Source: a virus. Taken from it: a stretch of DNA of 30,222 bases. The notes beneath the pieces are model-generated. The model was not told the origin of the DNA, ran no database searches, and saw nothing but the letters and a program-made list of their open reading frames with translations. Below, one piece after another: positions 2,596 through 8,382 of the stretch. The translations under genes were made by a program, and so were the position numbers. Numbering within the stretch: the first letter of the stretch is position 1; each line of letters starts with the position of its first letter. The stretch spans positions 1 through 30,222 of the IMG/VR virus record IMGVR_UViG_3300046535_000186, one strand, 5' to 3'.

Positions 2596-3563
2596 GCATC
2601 CGCACCGTTACGATCGGGCCCGCCACCCTGTACTGCGGCGACGCCCTGGAAATCATCCCGACCCTGCCGAAGGTCGACGCCGTCATCACCGACCCGCCCT
2701 ACGGCGTGCTGGATGAAGAATGGGATTCCATGACCTTCCGCGAGCTGGCGCGCTTCACCATGGGCTGGGTCTCGCAGGTGCGCGCGAAGTCGGACGTGCT
2801 GGTGTCGTTCTTCGCCGTCGACACCCGGGCCGCCCTGGACCCGCTGCTGCAGATGGTCTATGAGGACGTGCGCCAGCTGGTCTGGAACAAGGGCGGCGGC
2901 CGCGTCGCCGATGGCGGCCTGTTCTACTCGTTCGAACCGATCTACCTGTGCCAGCCGCCGACGAAGTGGGAAGTGGTCGAGCCGAAGACGCTGGCAGTCG
3001 CCCAGCTGATCGCCAGCGCCCGCGAGCGCGCCGGGCTGTCGCGTGGCGCCGTCGACATGCAGGTGCGCGGGAAGAAAACCGGCCTGTGTTACCGCTGGGA
3101 AGAGGCGGCATGCCTGCCCACGCTCGAGCAGGCGCACAAGCTGCGCCAGATCCTACCGCTGGGCGTCGACTTCGACCAGACCTACACCGCGGCGCTGCTG
3201 GCACGCGACCAGGTGATGGCCAGCGCCCGCGCCAAGACGTCGGAGAACGCTGCGCGCGGCCTGGACGTGTTCACCTACCCGCCAACGCAGGGCGGACCTG
3301 ACCGGCACCCCACCGAGAAGCCGCTGGCGCTGATGGGCGACCTGGTGCAGGTGGTCACCGACCCGGGCCAGGTGGTTCTGGATCCGTTCATGGGCCGCGG
3401 CACCACCGGCGTCGCATGCGTGCAGCTGGGCCGCCCGTTCATCGGCATTGAGCGCGACCCGGGCCACTTCGATAACGCCTGCAGGCGCATCGAACAGGCG
3501 GTGGCGCAGGGCCAGCTGTTCACGCCCGAGCAATCGAAACAAGTACAGGAATCGCTGTTATGA
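2592..3563 (+). CDS. DNA N6-adenine/N4-cytosine methyltransferase with inserted HTH-like module
   Basis: This 323-aa amino-methyltransferase acts on adenine N6 or cytosine N4. The catalytic motif DPPYG is at D34-Y37 and the SAM-binding motif DPFMGRGTTG at about 264-273. Catalytic-before-SAM order is the beta-type arrangement. Between them, about residues 133-195, is a separate-looking segment (AQLIASARERAGLSRGAV, then VRGKKTGLCYRWEEAACLPT) that reads like an XRE-type helix-turn-helix and probably forms part of target recognition. The downstream HPTEKP motif is typical of the family. ATG at 2592 overlaps the previous stop (ATGA), and the stop overlaps the next start. It is the second DNA methyltransferase in the operon. 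A role in evading host restriction, or in regulation, is an inference. Confidence 0.92.
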   Translation: MSIRTVTIGPATLYCGDALEIIPTLPKVDAVITDPPYGVLDEEWDSMTFRELARFTMGWVSQVRAKSDVLVSFFAVDTRAALDPLLQMVYEDVRQLVWNKGGGRVADGGLFYSFEPIYLCQPPTKWEVVEPKTLAVAQLIASARERAGLSRGAVDMQVRGKKTGLCYRWEEAACLPTLEQAHKLRQILPLGVDFDQTYTAALLARDQVMASARAKTSENAARGLDVFTYPPTQGGPDRHPTEKPLALMGDLVQVVTDPGQVVLDPFMGRGTTGVACVQLGRPFIGIERDPGHFDNACRRIEQAVAQGQLFTPEQSKQVQESLL

Positions 3564-3988
3564 GCAAGCAGAAGAAAAAACGAGACAAGCCTTTCCGCCA
3601 GAAGCTGGTGGTGACGCCGCTGGGCCTGCACAACCGCCAGAAGATGGAATTCCCGGGCTATTCCGCATCGCTGGCGCTGGGCCAGTCGCACCTGGAAGCG
3701 CAGCACATTTATGACCTGCTGAGCAATGCCGACATGACGCGCCGGCTGGCGCCAGATGGCCACCCGGTCCTGCCGATCGCGCAGGCCATGGTGGAAGCGG
3801 TGCGCGACATTCAGGTGCGATCGCAGGAGATCGGCAAGCACGTCGTAAAGGGTGACGAACTGCGGATCCTGCGCGAGGGCGTAGGCCGCACGATGGACTT
3901 CCTGCGCACGGTGCCGGCCGTGAAGATCGCCAGGGCGGCGCAGCAGGCGGTGGACGAGTTCAACCGCACCGGCGCGCTGCGGGTATAA
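3560..3988 (+). CDS. Hypothetical phage protein upstream of replication genes
   Basis: I do not recognise this 142-aa protein. It begins with a very basic tail (MSKQKKKRDKPFRQK), followed by a predicted mostly helical body. The second half has a long amphipathic helix pattern (AMVEAVRDIQVRSQEIGKHV, then LRILREGVGRTMDFLRTVP). There is no signal peptide or membrane segment. Its start overlaps the methyltransferase stop (ATGA), and the O-like replication gene follows after 17 bases with its own ribosome-binding site. The charge and position suggest a nucleic-acid-associated accessory protein, but this is an inference only. Confidence 0.7.
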   Translation: MSKQKKKRDKPFRQKLVVTPLGLHNRQKMEFPGYSASLALGQSHLEAQHIYDLLSNADMTRRLAPDGHPVLPIAQAMVEAVRDIQVRSQEIGKHVVKGDELRILREGVGRTMDFLRTVPAVKIARAAQQAVDEFNRTGALRV

Positions 3989-4005: not shown

Positions 4006-4836
4006 ATGAGCATTACTTTGATGACACTGGCATGGAAGTCTGATTTTCAATCGGGCCGGAAGATGGTGCTGCTGGCGCTGTGCGACAACGCGAGCGACGA
4101 AGGCGTGTGCTACCCGGGCATCCCGACGCTGGCCAGGAAATGCAGCATGGGCGAGCGCACCATTCAGGGCCACATCGCCGACCTTGAAAAGCTGGGCATT
4201 GTGCGCCGTGAATTCCGGACTGGCCGCAGCACGCTGTACCAGATCGACGGCAGCAAAATCTGCCCCCCGCAGATTCTGCACCACCCCCCCGCAGAATTCG
4301 CACCACCCCCCCCGCAGGATCTGCACCACCCCCCCGCAGATCTCGCACCCATAACCATCACTGAATCATCAGATGAACCACCAGATAACCCAACCCCTGG
4401 GAAAACGGCGAAAAAGCATCATGGAACTGATGACGACTTCAAGGCTGCCCGCTGGATGTTCGACCTGGTGCGCAAGGTGAACCCGACGGCCCGGGCTGCG
4501 AACTTCGACGTGTGGGCAAACGAAATCCGCTTGATGCGCGAGATCGACGGCCGCACGCATGCCGAAGTGTGCGAGCTGTTCCTGTGGGCTAAAAAGGATT
4601 CGTTCTGGTGCGCGAATATCCAGTCGCCGGCCAAGCTGCGCGAGAAGTGGAACACGCTGGCCGAGCGCATGCAGCGCAGCCAGCCGGCACCGCGGCCTGG
4701 TGCTGGCCAGCCTTCCGCCGCCGGCAAGTCGGTCGCCGAACAGAACGCGGCCAACAGCGCCGAGGCGAAGCGCCTGCTGTTCGGCACCCCGGCCCCAGCC
4801 GATGAAGTCGATGATGGAGTACTTGAAAATGCGTGA
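4006..4836 (+). CDS. Lambda O-like replication initiator with winged-helix N-terminus
   Basis: This 276-aa protein starts with a helix-turn-helix/winged-helix domain (about residues 15-80: KMVLLALCDNASDEGVCYPG, TLARKCSMGERTIQGHIADL, then LEKLGIVRREF), as in phage O-type initiators that bind iterons at the origin. A Pro/His-rich linker (about 85-120) is encoded by four GC-rich DNA repeats. The C-terminal domain, about 145-235, is predicted helical and contains DVWANEIRLMREIDGRTHAE and LREKWNTLAERMQ. The start at 4006 has a purine-rich site (GGGGA) upstream. As in lambda, origin-like repeats lie within the gene and a P-like gene follows with a short overlap. The linker carries C-runs of 6, 7, 8 and 7 bases, so the frame is vulnerable to slippage or sequencing error. 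The initiator role is inferred from domain and layout. Confidence 0.8.
   Translation: MSITLMTLAWKSDFQSGRKMVLLALCDNASDEGVCYPGIPTLARKCSMGERTIQGHIADLEKLGIVRREFRTGRSTLYQIDGSKICPPQILHHPPAEFAPPPPQDLHHPPADLAPITITESSDEPPDNPTPGKTAKKHHGTDDDFKAARWMFDLVRKVNPTARAANFDVWANEIRLMREIDGRTHAEVCELFLWAKKDSFWCANIQSPAKLREKWNTLAERMQRSQPAPRPGAGQPSAAGKSVAEQNAANSAEAKRLLFGTPAPADEVDDGVLENA
4263..4350 (+). repeat. Four iterons, candidate phage replication origin
   Basis: Four copies of a 15-base core begin at 4269 (GCAGATTCTGCACCA), 4291 (GCAGAATTCGCACCA), 4314 (GCAGGATCTGCACCA) and 4336 (GCAGATCTCGCACCC). Each is preceded by a run of 6, 7, 8 or 7 cytosines. Core-to-core spacing is 22, 23 and 22 bases, so copies 1 and 3 are read in one frame and copies 2 and 4 in another, while the DNA stays conserved. 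Copies contain dyad symmetry (GCAGA-T-TCTGC in copy 1, AGATCT in copy 4). The arrangement inside an O-like gene parallels the lambda origin with its four iterons. Origin activity is an inference. Confidence 0.72.
4351..4430 (+). other. Lower-GC segment next to the iterons, candidate unwinding element
   Basis: Directly right of the four iterons the sequence drops to about 45% GC (36 of 80 bases by hand count) inside a very GC-rich gene, with A-rich stretches such as GGGAAAACGGCGAAAAAG. In lambda the AT-rich segment that melts first also lies to the right of the iterons. The segment stays coding (TITESSDEPPDNPTPGKTAK), a disordered linker compatible with relaxed protein constraint. Confidence 0.5.
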
Positions 4837-5644
4837 GAACGACTTTGACGAATTTTCCCAGCTGCTGGACGCCGCCTTCGACATTCTCGGCAAGACGCCC
4901 GCGGCCAAGGTGGTCAGCTCGACCGCCAAGGCGCTGTTCTTCCAGGCGCTGGCCGAGTATCCCCTGCCGCTGGTGCGCGCGGCGATAGGTGCGCACGTCA
5001 AGCGCGGCAAGTTCACGCCCACGCCCGGCGATATCGTGGATCACATCGAGGCCAGCACCAACGGCGACGGCCGCCCCGGGCCGGAAGAGGCCTGGGCGAT
5101 CGCACTGGCCAGCCAGGACGAGCGCGACACGGTGGTATGGACGTCGGAGACCGCGCAGGCCTGGACGGTGGCGCGCCCGGTGATGGAGACCAGTGGCCCG
5201 ATCAGCGCCCGCAAGACCTTCACCGAGACTTACACGCGCCTGATCGCCGCTTCGCGTGCCCAGCGCCGCCCGGTGGTCTGGTCGGCCCACCTGGGCTGGG
5301 ACAAGGCGATGCAGGCGCAGGTGCTGCTGCGCGCCACCGAGCAGGGCCTGCTGCCGGCGCCCAGCGTGGCCGGCCTGCTGCCACCGCCAGAAGTGCCAGA
5401 ACTGGCACTTTCCCCCGATGCGCGCGCCCAGCTGGCCAAGGTGAAGCAGATGCTGGCCGACAGCGCCGCCGAACGGGAAAGCCGGCTGCAGGCCAAGGTG
5501 GACGCCCGCAACGAGACCGAGGCCGAGTTCAAGCGCAACCTGAACCAGCGTGTGGTCGAGTACCAGCGGTTCGCCAAGCTGGCCGACCAGGTGCAGGTGA
5601 CCCGGGCCGAGGGCGAACGCGCCGAGAAGGCGGGCCAGCCATGA
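4829..5644 (+). CDS. Replication-associated protein, putative lambda P-like/helicase loader partner
   Basis: The 271-aa product follows the O-like gene with an 8-base overlap, the position of lambda P or a helicase-loader gene. The N-terminal part (FSQLLDAAFDILGKTPAAK, ALFFQALAEYPLPLVRAAIG, then FTPTPGDIVDHIE) matches a pattern common in phage replication proteins, in which a helical domain is followed by a P-x-P-x-D-I motif. Residues about 190-265 form a long charged helix or coiled coil (ERESRLQAKVDARNETEAEF). The start at 4829 is preferred because GGAG lies 9 bases upstream. Other in-frame ATGs at 4802, 4811 and 4814 lie further inside the previous gene. No Walker motif is visible, so it is not an ATPase of the DnaC type. 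The role comes from context and motif and is moderately secure. Confidence 0.65.
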   Translation: MRENDFDEFSQLLDAAFDILGKTPAAKVVSSTAKALFFQALAEYPLPLVRAAIGAHVKRGKFTPTPGDIVDHIEASTNGDGRPGPEEAWAIALASQDERDTVVWTSETAQAWTVARPVMETSGPISARKTFTETYTRLIAASRAQRRPVVWSAHLGWDKAMQAQVLLRATEQGLLPAPSVAGLLPPPEVPELALSPDARAQLAKVKQMLADSAAERESRLQAKVDARNETEAEFKRNLNQRVVEYQRFAKLADQVQVTRAEGERAEKAGQP

Positions 5645-5847
5645 CGCAGAAGCAGCACCACCGCGCCGTCCTGACCGCCGACCAGGTGCGCCAGATGCGC
5701 GCCGCGCACGTCCCCGGCAAGGTCGGATATGAAACCCTGGCCGCCCGGTTCGGCTGTGGCGTGTCGACCGCCCGCGATATCTGCACCTACCGGACCCGCC
5801 GCGACGTCCTGGCCGACATGCCGGAATGTGTTGACAAGAGGGAATAG
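5641..5847 (+). CDS. Small helix-turn-helix DNA-binding protein
   Basis: This 68-aa basic protein has a clear helix-turn-helix pattern: LTADQVRQMRAAHVPG, then YETLAARFGCGVSTARDICT, resembling resolvase or sigma-like HTH modules. The start overlaps the previous stop (ATGA). It is the last early gene before the non-coding control region, and the first promoter of that region (-35 box at 5831) lies inside its 3' end. That is the position occupied by late regulators or antiterminators such as Q in lambdoid phages. It is far smaller than known Q proteins, so a late-regulator role is a hypothesis. Confidence 0.7.
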   Translation: MTQKQHHRAVLTADQVRQMRAAHVPGKVGYETLAARFGCGVSTARDICTYRTRRDVLADMPECVDKRE

Positions 5848-5860
5848 TCCGCCGTACATT
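5831..5860 (+). promoter_or_regulatory. Sigma70-like promoter P1, candidate late promoter
   Basis: A perfect -35 box TTGACA (5831-5836) is followed after 18 bases by TACATT (5855-5860), which matches TATAAT at four of six positions. It points rightward toward a terminator about 55 bases downstream and then the terminase genes. The layout recalls the lambda late promoter pR'. Confidence 0.6.
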
Positions 5861-5866
5861 GGACAC

Positions 5867-5951
5867 GTCGCCGGTCCCCAGCGCTGCCGACTGTCTCCAA
5901 TCCCCACCCTTCGGGCCGCCCTTGCGAAAGCATCGGCGGCCCTTCTTCTTT
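5867..5951 (+). ncRNA. Predicted short leader RNA between P1 and terminator
   Basis: If P1 fires and the terminator works, the product is an untranslated RNA of about 85 bases ending in a GAAA-capped hairpin and a U-rich tail. No convincing ORF lies in it. It could be the constitutive leader of an antiterminated late operon, as lambda 6S RNA is, or an independent small RNA. Both ends are deduced from promoter and terminator patterns only. Confidence 0.35.
5913..5951 (+). terminator. Intrinsic terminator before the late operon
   Basis: GGGCCGCC (5913-5920) pairs perfectly with GGCGGCCC (5935-5942). Inside it TGC-GAAA-GCA adds a GNRA-capped extension. The T-rich tract TTCTTCTTT follows at 5943-5951. 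It would stop rightward transcription from the early operon and from P1, separating early from late genes unless antitermination occurs. Confidence 0.72.
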
Positions 5952-5989
5952 CGGCGCAGCCGATCGCCGCATCTGCATAAATTCGCCCG

Positions 5990-6095
5990 ATTCCGCATAA
6001 AAACCGCATTGCCATGACATTCCGCACCTGTTTTTGAACTAAATACGCTCATCCGTTGACTTTTATTCCGCGCAGAAATACATTCCACCGGGAAT
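5990..6095 (+). promoter_or_regulatory. Repeated ATTCC motifs, candidate operator sites
   Basis: ATTCC occurs at 5990, 6019, 6065 and 6082. The first two extend to ATTCCGCA and the third to ATTCCGCG. The last copy forms an inverted repeat with GGAAT (ATTCC-ACCG-GGAAT, 6082-6095) that overlaps the -10 box of promoter P2. GCATAAA is also repeated at 5975 and 5995. The density in non-coding DNA around a promoter suggests binding of a phage regulator. Confidence 0.45.
6056..6084 (+). promoter_or_regulatory. Sigma70-like promoter P2 upstream of terminase genes
   Basis: TTGACT (6056-6061), a 17-base spacer and TACATT (6079-6084) form a promoter with the same -10 box as P1. It lies downstream of the terminator and 30 bases before the terminase small subunit start, so it could feed the late operon independently of antitermination. 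Confidence 0.6.
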
Positions 6096-6113
6096 CAAGA
6101 ACAGGGGAGTGGC

Positions 6114-6554
6114 ATGGGACGCAAGACGACATACACGGAAAAGGCCGCGGCCGAGATCTGCCGCCGCATTGCTGAAGGTCAGCCACTGCGCCAGATCTGC
6201 CGTGATGACCACATGCCCGCATGGCAAACCGTTTATGGATGGATCGAGGCCCAGCCGACGTTTGCCGAACGCATCGCGCGTGCGCGCGAGCTGGGATTCG
6301 ACGCCATTGCCGAAGAGGCGCTCGAGATCGCCGACACGCCGGTGATCGGCGAGACCGAGGAAACCAGCGCGGACGGCAAAAAGGTCAAGCGCGAGGACAT
6401 GCTGGGCCACCGGAAGCTGCAGGTAGAGACCCGGCTAAAACTGCTGTCCAAGTGGGCGCCGAAGAAGTACGGCGAGTCGATCCGCCAGGAGCTGACCGGC
6501 GCGAACGGCGGCCCGATCCAGATGCAATTCAGCGCGACGGACGCCGACCTGTGA
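6114..6554 (+). CDS. terS: Terminase small subunit, Sf6-type
   Basis: This 146-aa protein matches the Sf6-type small terminase family. It has an N-terminal HTH (YTEKAAAEICRRIAEGQPLR, then HMPAWQTVYGWIEAQPTF), a central helical oligomerisation region (ERIARARELGFDAIAEEALE), and the characteristic C-terminal pattern RLKLLSKWAPKKYGESIRQE followed by LTGANGGPIQMQF. It forms a ring that recognises the packaging site on concatemeric phage DNA and stimulates the large subunit. The ATG at 6114 has a strong GGGGAG site at 6104-6109. It overlaps the GTG start of the large subunit (GTGA), the classical first gene pair of a late operon. Confidence 0.93.
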   Translation: MGRKTTYTEKAAAEICRRIAEGQPLRQICRDDHMPAWQTVYGWIEAQPTFAERIARARELGFDAIAEEALEIADTPVIGETEETSADGKKVKREDMLGHRKLQVETRLKLLSKWAPKKYGESIRQELTGANGGPIQMQFSATDADL

Positions 6555-7957
6555 CCACGACCGGCTTCAAGCCGACCCCGCGGCAGCTGCTGGCGCAGCA
6601 GGTGCTGGCCAGCGCCTGCACCTGGATCATGCTGTTCGGCGGCGGCCGGTCCGGTAAAACCTTCCTGGTGGTCCGGAACATCATCCTGCGCGCGCTGAAG
6701 GCGCCCGGGTCGCGCCACCTGATCGTGCGGTGGCGCTTCAACCACCTGAAGGCGTCGATCATGCGCGACACCTTCCCGAAGGTGATGCGGGTTTGCTATC
6801 CCGACCTGGTGAAGGGCGACGGCTGGGACATCAATATGTCCGAGGGCTTCGCCAAGATCCGCACCGGCGTCGATGACAAGGGCCAGCCGATCTTCAGCGA
6901 GATCTGGTTCCTGGGCCTGGACGATAAGGACCGCATGGAAAAGGTGCTGGGCATGGAGTTCGCGACCATCTACGTGAACGAGGCCAGCCAGATCCAGTGG
7001 GAAGGCGTGCAGCTGCTGCTGACCCGCCTGGCCCAGCGCTGCATGCAGGTGATCAACGGCGTGGCCCAGCCCCTGAAGCTGCGGTACCTGTTCGACTGCA
7101 ACCCGCCATCGAAGATGCACTGGACCTTCAAGGTCTTCAAGCAAAAGCTGGACCCCGAAACGAAGAAGCCGCTGGCCAATCCGGAGAACTACGACAGCTT
7201 CCAGATGAACCCGCGCGACAACGAGGCCAATCTGTCGCCGGAATACCTGGCCACCCTGTCGGGCCTGTCCGAGCGCATGCGGCGCCGCTTCGAACGCGGC
7301 GAGTTCGCCGAGGCCACCCCGAACGCCCTGTTCGATGAAGCGACGGTCGACCGCTGGCGCGCTGACCCCGAGGACGTGCCGGCGCTGGTGCGCGTGGTGG
7401 TCTCCGTCGACCCGAGTGGCGCCAGCGATGACGCCCAGAACGCGGATAACGACGAAGTGGGCATCACCGTCGAAGGCCTGGGCGTCGATGGCAATGCGTA
7501 CCTGCTGGAAGACCTGACCGTGAAGGCCGGCCCGACCACCTGGGGCGCCGTCGCCGTCCAGGCATACCAGCGGCACAGCGCCGACGCGATCGTAGGCGAG
7601 ACCAACTTCGGCGGCGGCATGGTCAAGTTCGTTGTGCAGGCGGCCGCCGCGAAGCTGGGCATGCGCGTGAACTTCAAGATGGTCACCGCCAGCCGCGGCA
7701 AGGCCCAGCGCGCCGAGCCCTTCAGCGTCCTATACGACCAGGGCAAGGTGCGCCACGTCGGCCTGTTCCCGAAGCTGGAAGACGAATTGTGTGCATTTTC
7801 CACATCGGGCTACACCGGCCCGAAGTCACCGAACCGCGCCGACGCCCATGTGTGGGCCCTGGCCGAACTGTTCCCGGCCCTGGTCAAGGCGCCGAAAAAA
7901 GAGGCGCAAGCCGACACCGAAGACGACTACATAGGAGAAGGCGCATGGATGGGATGA
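6551..7957 (+). CDS. terL: Terminase large subunit
   Basis: The 468-aa packaging motor cuts concatemeric DNA and drives it into the prohead through the portal. The ATPase domain has Walker A GGGRSGKT (about residues 29-36) and Walker B ATIYVNE (138-144, catalytic E144). The C-terminal RNase H-like nuclease has acidic residues D287 (VSVDPSG) and D431 (RADAHVWAL), with the conserved ETNFGGGMV segment between them. The GTG start at 6551 is supported by coupling with the small subunit stop and by the N-terminal pattern FKPTPRQLLAQQVL. There is no in-frame ATG nearby. Length is normal for headful-packaging podoviruses. The stop overlaps the next gene. Confidence 0.95.
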   Translation: MTTTGFKPTPRQLLAQQVLASACTWIMLFGGGRSGKTFLVVRNIILRALKAPGSRHLIVRWRFNHLKASIMRDTFPKVMRVCYPDLVKGDGWDINMSEGFAKIRTGVDDKGQPIFSEIWFLGLDDKDRMEKVLGMEFATIYVNEASQIQWEGVQLLLTRLAQRCMQVINGVAQPLKLRYLFDCNPPSKMHWTFKVFKQKLDPETKKPLANPENYDSFQMNPRDNEANLSPEYLATLSGLSERMRRRFERGEFAEATPNALFDEATVDRWRADPEDVPALVRVVVSVDPSGASDDAQNADNDEVGITVEGLGVDGNAYLLEDLTVKAGPTTWGAVAVQAYQRHSADAIVGETNFGGGMVKFVVQAAAAKLGMRVNFKMVTASRGKAQRAEPFSVLYDQGKVRHVGLFPKLEDELCAFSTSGYTGPKSPNRADAHVWALAELFPALVKAPKKEAQADTEDDYIGEGAWMG

Positions 7958-8382
7958 CCCTGAAACCGACCGCACTGGCCGCCGCTGCGCTGGCCAGCAT
8001 TACCACCGACACCCGGGCCCTGAAGCCTGGCCGGATCACTCTGGGCGCCGCCAGCCTGGACTTGAGCTACAGCGGCATTGTCCCGATCGCCGACCGCGAC
8101 CGGGTGCTCGAGTTATCAAACTTGTTTACTTTACGCACGGAAAGAGGCAATAATCACGCCCATTCCTTGATGCAAGATGTTTGCGAGCAAGCCGACCAGG
8201 CGAACAAGCTACTTTTGCTCATGCCCGAGGCATTCGACCAAGGCGGCCCGACTACCGCCCAGCTGGTCGACTGGTACACCGGCAAGTTCGGTTTTACCTA
8301 CCTTCAGCACACCCCCAAAGTCATTTTGATCAGACTGCCGCGCACCGCGGCGCAACAATGGGCGGCCGCAAATGGGCAATAA
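7945..8382 (+). CDS. GNAT-like small protein between terminase and portal
   Basis: This 145-aa protein sits between terL and portal, where P22 has no gene. The second half (LMQDVCEQADQANKLLLLMP, then LVDWYTGKFGFTYLQ and VILIRLPR) resembles the C-terminal half of phage GNAT acetyltransferases, in which a helix with CxxAD is followed by LLxP and LxxWYxxxGF. The usual acetyl-CoA loop is poorly preserved, so activity is uncertain. The start at 7945 has AGGAG at 7933-7937. It overlaps terL by 13 bases and the portal start by 11 bases. Bases about 8108-8180 are visibly lower in GC than their neighbours, suggesting recent acquisition. It may modify a host or virion protein, or be a degenerate enzyme. 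Confidence 0.6.
   Translation: MDGMTLKPTALAAAALASITTDTRALKPGRITLGAASLDLSYSGIVPIADRDRVLELSNLFTLRTERGNNHAHSLMQDVCEQADQANKLLLLMPEAFDQGGPTTAQLVDWYTGKFGFTYLQHTPKVILIRLPRTAAQQWAAANGQ

Follow-up and report, generated by a model that had tools for sequence, protein, structure and literature searches.

The DNA immediately ahead of the terminase genes of the IMG/VR virus record IMGVR_UViG_3300046535_000186 raises the question of whether the late genes of this phage are governed by a switch of the pR'/tR' type and, in that case, which protein would operate it. We considered as the window the whole record (positions 1-30,222; 30,222 bp). In it a promoter (P1), an intrinsic terminator (T) and a second promoter (P2) stand directly ahead of terS. 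A previous, sequence-only reading had taken this block for a late switch and had put forward a 68-aa HTH protein, encoded just upstream, as a minimal late regulator. From the comparison of related records, the P1-T layout is real and conserved and is most likely a late switch, for which the 68-aa HTH protein can most likely be discounted as the late factor.

Sequences compared

The window carries a replication and nin-type module (in order: C5 methyltransferase, RusA, N4/N6 methyltransferase, p142, O-like protein, p271 and the 68-aa HTH protein), followed by an Sf6-type terS, terL, a P22-like portal gene and further late genes. The block set consisted of nine IMG/VR records, the window included. 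Five relatives were retrieved at full length so that, together with the window, six genomes were scanned. In four of these five relatives, with lengths of 36.1-37.4 kb, the two ends share a direct overlap of 122-141 bp, in a different gene each time; these four genomes are therefore probably complete. A search of the six records for a tyrosine integrase found none, the controls being positive. A DNA profile of the block matched, among the loci searched, this clade only; the carriers form one close clade, and no block in a host or a prophage was found by scanning genome contigs with p271 and terS.

As the reference for conservation we used the spacer between T and P2 alone, which is single and small and in which 20 of 65 positions (31%) are invariant. 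Since invariance also reaches 54-65% at four-fold synonymous sites of the flanking genes, only the contrast with this variable spacer is informative. The features considered are collected in Table 1.

Table 1. Features in and around the block ahead of terS (positions in the window)
Feature	Position	Strand	Evidence or remark
p142, 142-aa protein of the early rightward operon	3560-3988	+	candidate regulator by elimination only
O-like replication initiation protein	4006-4836	+	phrog_391, E=2.9e-62
p271, probable helicase-loader-type replication partner	4829-5644	+	phrog_6028 (no known function), E=4.6e-49
68-aa HTH protein, nin-type accessory gene	5641-5847	+	relatives and slot comparison; not conserved with the block
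P1 promoter, TTGACA-18-TACATT (-35 at 5831-5836, 18 bp, -10 at 5855-5860)	5831-5860	+	both hexamers invariant in nine records
Spacer element GGAA-N3-TCCGCC, between -35 and -10 of P1	5841-5853	+	invariant in nine records
P1 start region and leader, with invariant segment GACTGTCTCCAATCCC at 5889-5904	5861-5912	+	positional conservation
T, intrinsic terminator: 8-bp GC stem, inner UGC-GNRA-GCA, U-rich tail	5913-5953	+	covariation, folding
Conserved segment 3' of the terminator	5952-5983	+	28 of 32 positions invariant
Two GCATAAA direct repeats, 20 bp apart	5975-6001	+	repeat scan
P2 promoter, TTGACT-17-TACATT (-35 at 6056-6061, 17 bp, -10 at 6079-6084)	6056-6084	+	both hexamers invariant in nine records
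Inverted repeat ATTCC-N4-GGAAT across the P2 -10 box and start	6082-6095	+	invariant in nine records
terS, Sf6-type small terminase, first late gene	6114-6554	+	PF20901, E=7.6e-37
terL, large terminase	6551-7957	+	phrog_979, E=1.3e-62

The block as a conserved unit

Every element of the promoter-terminator-second-promoter block was found where the sequence-only reading had placed it, P1 and P2 sharing the same -10 box. P1 is the sole plus-strand site with at least 10 of 12 matches in the window, as it is in each of the five relatives. There were 2 promoter matches in 3 kb, to be compared with 0.3 +/- 0.7 in shuffled sequences, and P1-T is, again in the window and in each of the five relatives, the sole promoter-to-terminator composite within 200 nt. 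Such a composite was present upstream of terS in 9 of 57 loci (7 of the 9 from the window clade) versus 0.4% of the shuffles. The four hexamers together with the 11 bases after the P2 -10 box are invariant at 35 of 35 positions in nine sequences, and the block is kept across the nine records despite differing upstream genes.

Two observations were made outside the clade and in the neighbouring coding sequence. At locus L054, which belongs to a different clade, ATGTCA-18-TAAAAT stands upstream of terS (at 793) with a terminator at +43; the near relatives of L054 did not show this promoter-terminator pair upstream of terS. In the window, a promoter-like site with 9 of 12 matches (8125-8154) lies inside the coding sequence of p7957 and also occurs in four relatives, where it may reflect nothing else than the conserved protein sequence.

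P1, its spacer element and the leader

With a presumed start near 5867, P1 has a leader of about 45 nt ahead of the hairpin. The element GGAA-N3-TCCGCC occurs once in the window and once in each of the five relatives. Taken as a whole, the P1 spacer is invariant at 10 of 18 positions, which is not significant against the variable T-P2 spacer (p = 0.09); the GGAA-N3-TCCGCC core does exceed the variable spacer (p = 0.0035), with the qualification that its positions were picked after the alignment had been seen. It occupies the position of a Q- or AlpA-binding element and is, on this analogy, a putative regulator element. The leader (5861-5903) is invariant at 30 of 43 positions, against the 20 of 65 of the reference.

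No good -10-like sigma-pause hexamer was found in the first 40 nt from the presumed P1 start, and the best hexamer for A2/T6 in the first 25 nt, counted from that same presumed start, is GACTGT, with 2 of 6 matches. Two other interpretations of this region were set aside. The spacer motif as an operator of the early Cro-like protein was rejected because the relatives have a conserved minus-strand early promoter that lacks the motif, and a boxA/nut-type leader was rejected because the GCTCT run is present in some relatives only.

The -35 box of P1 does lie, as had been noticed, within the 3' end of the 68-aa ORF. Since other genes in the relatives likewise stop at or beside this box, the overlap looks like genome compactness.

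The terminator T

The hairpin of T, GGGCCGCC/GGCGGCCC, spans 5913-5942 and consists of the 8-bp GC stem and an inner 3-bp stem capped by GAAA (UGC-GAAA-GCA). It begins 52 nt past the P1 -10 box, that is at about +47 from the presumed start at 5867. The 100 nt of leader plus terminator fold with a minimum free energy of -39.3 kcal/mol (z = -2.9). Across seven sequences the pairs are kept at 100%, with 3 of 11 pairs changed on both sides in a compensatory manner, and the tetraloop is either GAAA or GCAA among the relatives, both of them GNRA loops. A simple terminator scan missed T because the loop is 14 nt.

The U-tract (CUUCUUCUUUC) is interrupted and poorly conserved (2 of 9 positions). For this reason, of the previous description of T as a strong intrinsic terminator with a GAAA-capped stem, the hairpin and its cap are borne out, while its strength is a prediction.

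P2 and the segment between T and terS

The start of P2 is expected near 6091. The inverted repeat ATTCC-N4-GGAAT that covers its -10 box occurs once per genome scanned, versus 0.0 expected in composition shuffles; an invariant repeat at such a place suggests that P2 may be under separate control. The GGAA/TTCC half-sites give the impression, which we take as an impression only, of an operator common to P1 and P2. Between T and P2, the pair of GCATAAA repeats was found at this place alone in the window and in most relatives, the second copy being changed in G002.

As a further observation on the genes that adjoin the block, the terS of L069/L121 is 63% identical to that of the window, the adjacent terL is 96% identical and the block is conserved, which suggests that terS alone was exchanged next to the block.

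Search for a Q protein and other regulator candidates

The sequence-only reading had found no recognisable Q upstream, and our searches agree, no Q-family protein being detected by the two usable Pfam models or by a custom Q profile. PF06530 and PF03589 were absent from the window and from eight relatives, with positive controls; the search with PF06323 was uninformative, as its control gave no signal. The custom profile, built on three Q-like proteins, matched its own members only. Compared with the profiles of the p142 and 68-aa HTH families it showed no similarity, the alignments being shallow and the power low, and neither of these two families had an antiterminator match among PDB sequences.

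In the early rightward operon, the NinB-like and YbcO-like proteins of the relatives belong to assigned families, and the candidates left after elimination are p142 and the Cro-like HTH protein. No Pfam or PHROG match was obtained for p142, which is restricted to the clade: a direct search returned 2 other contigs only, none of them from named phages. It is encoded in the block records long enough to show its position, with the exception of G005, which has a divergent protein there (29% identity). The gene for p271 precedes the block in all nine records. It was discarded as a regulator because in two named phages, Erwinia PEp14 and Xanthomonas PBR31, its homologs adjoin genes for O-like replication proteins, a position from which we infer its probable helicase-loader role.

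The 68-aa HTH protein

The 68-aa HTH family has 29 relatives in viral contigs, and the motif STARDICTYRTR is invariant in 19 of 19 aligned members, whose phages differ widely in GC content. Its genes (L007-L028) often directly follow a methyltransferase gene, and in unrelated phages (32-62% GC) the relatives adjoin methyltransferase, NinB-like and HNH genes, the last two labels having been read by eye from the sequences.

Among the nine block-bearing records, the gene is present in four (the window, G001, G002 and G003). It was not found in L036-L039 in a search of seven relatives' records, and in L069, a 5-kb record judged from the sequence of the slot, it is absent between p271 and the block. 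In two apparently complete records, G005 and G006, the slot is filled by an unrelated Cys-rich gene of 70 aa; in the remaining three records without the HTH gene, the sequence right before P1 resembles the end of this Cys-rich gene. The P1 spacer motif and the leader stay the same whichever gene fills the slot. Size is a further point: 21Q and AlpA use an N-terminal part for RNAP binding (PMC9371919), and by analogy 68 aa would leave little room for a part of that kind.

Because the gene was not found in five records, the P1 motif is unchanged there and the relatives lie beside methyltransferase, NinB-like or HNH genes, the 68-aa protein is best seen as a nin-type accessory, and its proposed role as a minimal late regulator is not supported. 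Lambda NinH resembles it in having 68 residues, an HTH and a nin-type genomic position (PMC7166090); the relation is positional only, and no NinH match for the 68-aa protein was found in Pfam or PHROGs.

Other genes were seen around this slot. Between p271 and P1, G002 and G005 (loci L034 and L037) have a DpdA-like gene, of the type for 7-deazaguanine modification of DNA (the G005 protein matches PF23859 with E=5e-41), and the window has none at this place. In L060, otherwise a different phage, another HTH gene, not of this family but similar in its HHRAKLT start, lies directly before terS (about 1283-1500).

Comparison with known systems

The block resembles Q/pR'/tR' of lambda in having a sigma-70 promoter, a short leader, an intrinsic terminator and then late genes, and in the conserved sequence between the -35 and -10 boxes. 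It differs from lambda in that no Q and no good sigma-pause hexamer were detected, that the additional promoter P2 lies past the terminator and that the lysis genes are at the far end of the late operon.

The same order right before terS was found in EBPR podovirus 1 (JF412294), whose P22-like portal is 48% identical: gp41, TTGACA-17-CAGAAT, a terminator at 6774-6798 and terS, which is annotated, probably wrongly, as starting within the terminator. Among other proteins, gp41 hits best one that is annotated as antitermination protein Q (E=5e-7); a further hit (E=4e-3) carries the annotation antitermination-like. In this phage, unlike in the window, the slot is held by a Q-like gene and no P2 was found by the same scan; what is compared here is the layout and not the DNA sequence. 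PBR31, which has p271 and the portal in common with the window, has an annotated Q followed by a terminator. A PBR31 repeat, GGAAAAATCCGC, was likened to the P1 motif and set aside, since the promoter geometry differs there and the likeness is possibly due to chance.

AlpA of Pseudomonas aeruginosa is an antiterminator of the Q-like kind and yet has no sequence homology to Q proteins; its element, GGGACG-N5-GGTA, lies between -35 and -10 of PalpB, and the terminator tB is at +54 (PMC7969949, PMC9371919). For GafZ of Caulobacter, a putative element is in the same place, between -35 and -10 (PMC11150451). The P1 spacer motif is situated like the elements of AlpA, GafZ and Q, and the distance of T from the presumed start (about +47) is similar to that of tB. 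In contrast with these systems, whose regulator proteins are known, none was recognised in the window clade. In addition, the sigma-dependent pause element required by AlpA was not found near the presumed P1 start, and this lack of a good pause hexamer counts against the same loading mechanism.

Discussion

We lean towards P1 and T being a late switch of the pR'/tR' type, a reading that we hold with moderate confidence. Host sigma-70 RNA polymerase would start at P1 and, by default, stop at T after about 85 nt; a phage factor, probably encoded in the early rightward operon, would in the course of infection let the polymerase that started at P1 pass T, and read-through would reach terS and then the head, tail and lysis genes. 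P2 would act as a second sigma-70 promoter just before terS, with no need to pass T. Transcription from P1 and P2, termination at T, regulated read-through and loading of the factor by the spacer motif are here deductions from DNA sequence. The layout part of the previous claim is upheld by a conserved unit and by EBPR podovirus 1, a relative in which this layout comes with a Q-like gene; the part that made the 68-aa protein the regulator is not supported. Against a switch count the lack of a detected Q and of a good pause hexamer, the interrupted U-tract, the restriction to one clade and the fact that P2 could serve the late genes alone. As to the factor, Q-like antiterminators share little or no sequence and would therefore be missed by homology. 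A specific version, which we offer tentatively and think unlikely in its entirety, is a late antiterminator whose sequence has no relation to those of Q, AlpA and GafZ, perhaps a p142-family protein, that would recognise GGAA-N3-TCCGCC in P1 and load without a canonical sigma-dependent pause, P2 being an independent second late promoter.

Part of the same evidence could be read otherwise. P1 and T delimit a defined short RNA, the leader is conserved beyond the needs of a bare switch and no antiterminator was recognised, so P1-T might encode a small phage RNA, about 85 nt long and comprising the invariant GACUGUCUCCAAUCCC plus the GNRA-loop terminator, P2 being the sole late promoter and T insulating it from the replication operon. 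We regard this as unlikely: no Rfam family scored above its gathering score, and EBPR podovirus 1, with its Q-like gene, shows the same promoter-terminator layout. Still less probable would be ordinary tandem promoters with no dedicated switch, in which T ends the replication operon, P1 gives leak-through only and terS is expressed from P2, either constitutively or according to template number. This would agree with the conservation of P2, which is independent of read-through, and with an interrupted U-tract through which T may leak; it conflicts with the conservation of P1, its spacer core and the leader, even though a P1 placed ahead of T would then serve almost no purpose, and with a promoter-terminator pair far above chance.

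That the 68-aa HTH protein is itself an antiterminator or a late activator seems to us very improbable. In the window no other gene comes between it and P1, its slot is the one held by Q in EBPR podovirus 1 and PBR31, and the HTH gene of L060 directly before terS could be cited in its favour; against this stand the five block-bearing records in which it was not found, two apparently complete genomes among them, the identical P1 motif where the gene is replaced, the nin-type and methyltransferase contexts of its relatives and the lack of similarity to Q proteins, a comparison of low power. The conserved segment past T and the GCATAAA repeats, finally, might be a packaging start site (cos or pac) for the terminase, an assignment compatible with any of the transcription readings and one that we doubt. 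Its 28 of 32 conserved positions, 130-160 bp before terS, and the near confinement of the repeats to this place would fit, but each of the four circular-like assemblies ends in a different gene and none of the nine records has an interruption in the block, so that a fixed end is not in evidence here, and P1, T and P2 would be left unexplained.

Under the late-switch reading, these genomes, which are small, show no detectable integrase and leave few early genes unassigned, offer with their conserved promoter-terminator pair a short list of candidates for the late factor, and P1-T would provide a defined template for finding a new antiterminator by a simple reporter test.
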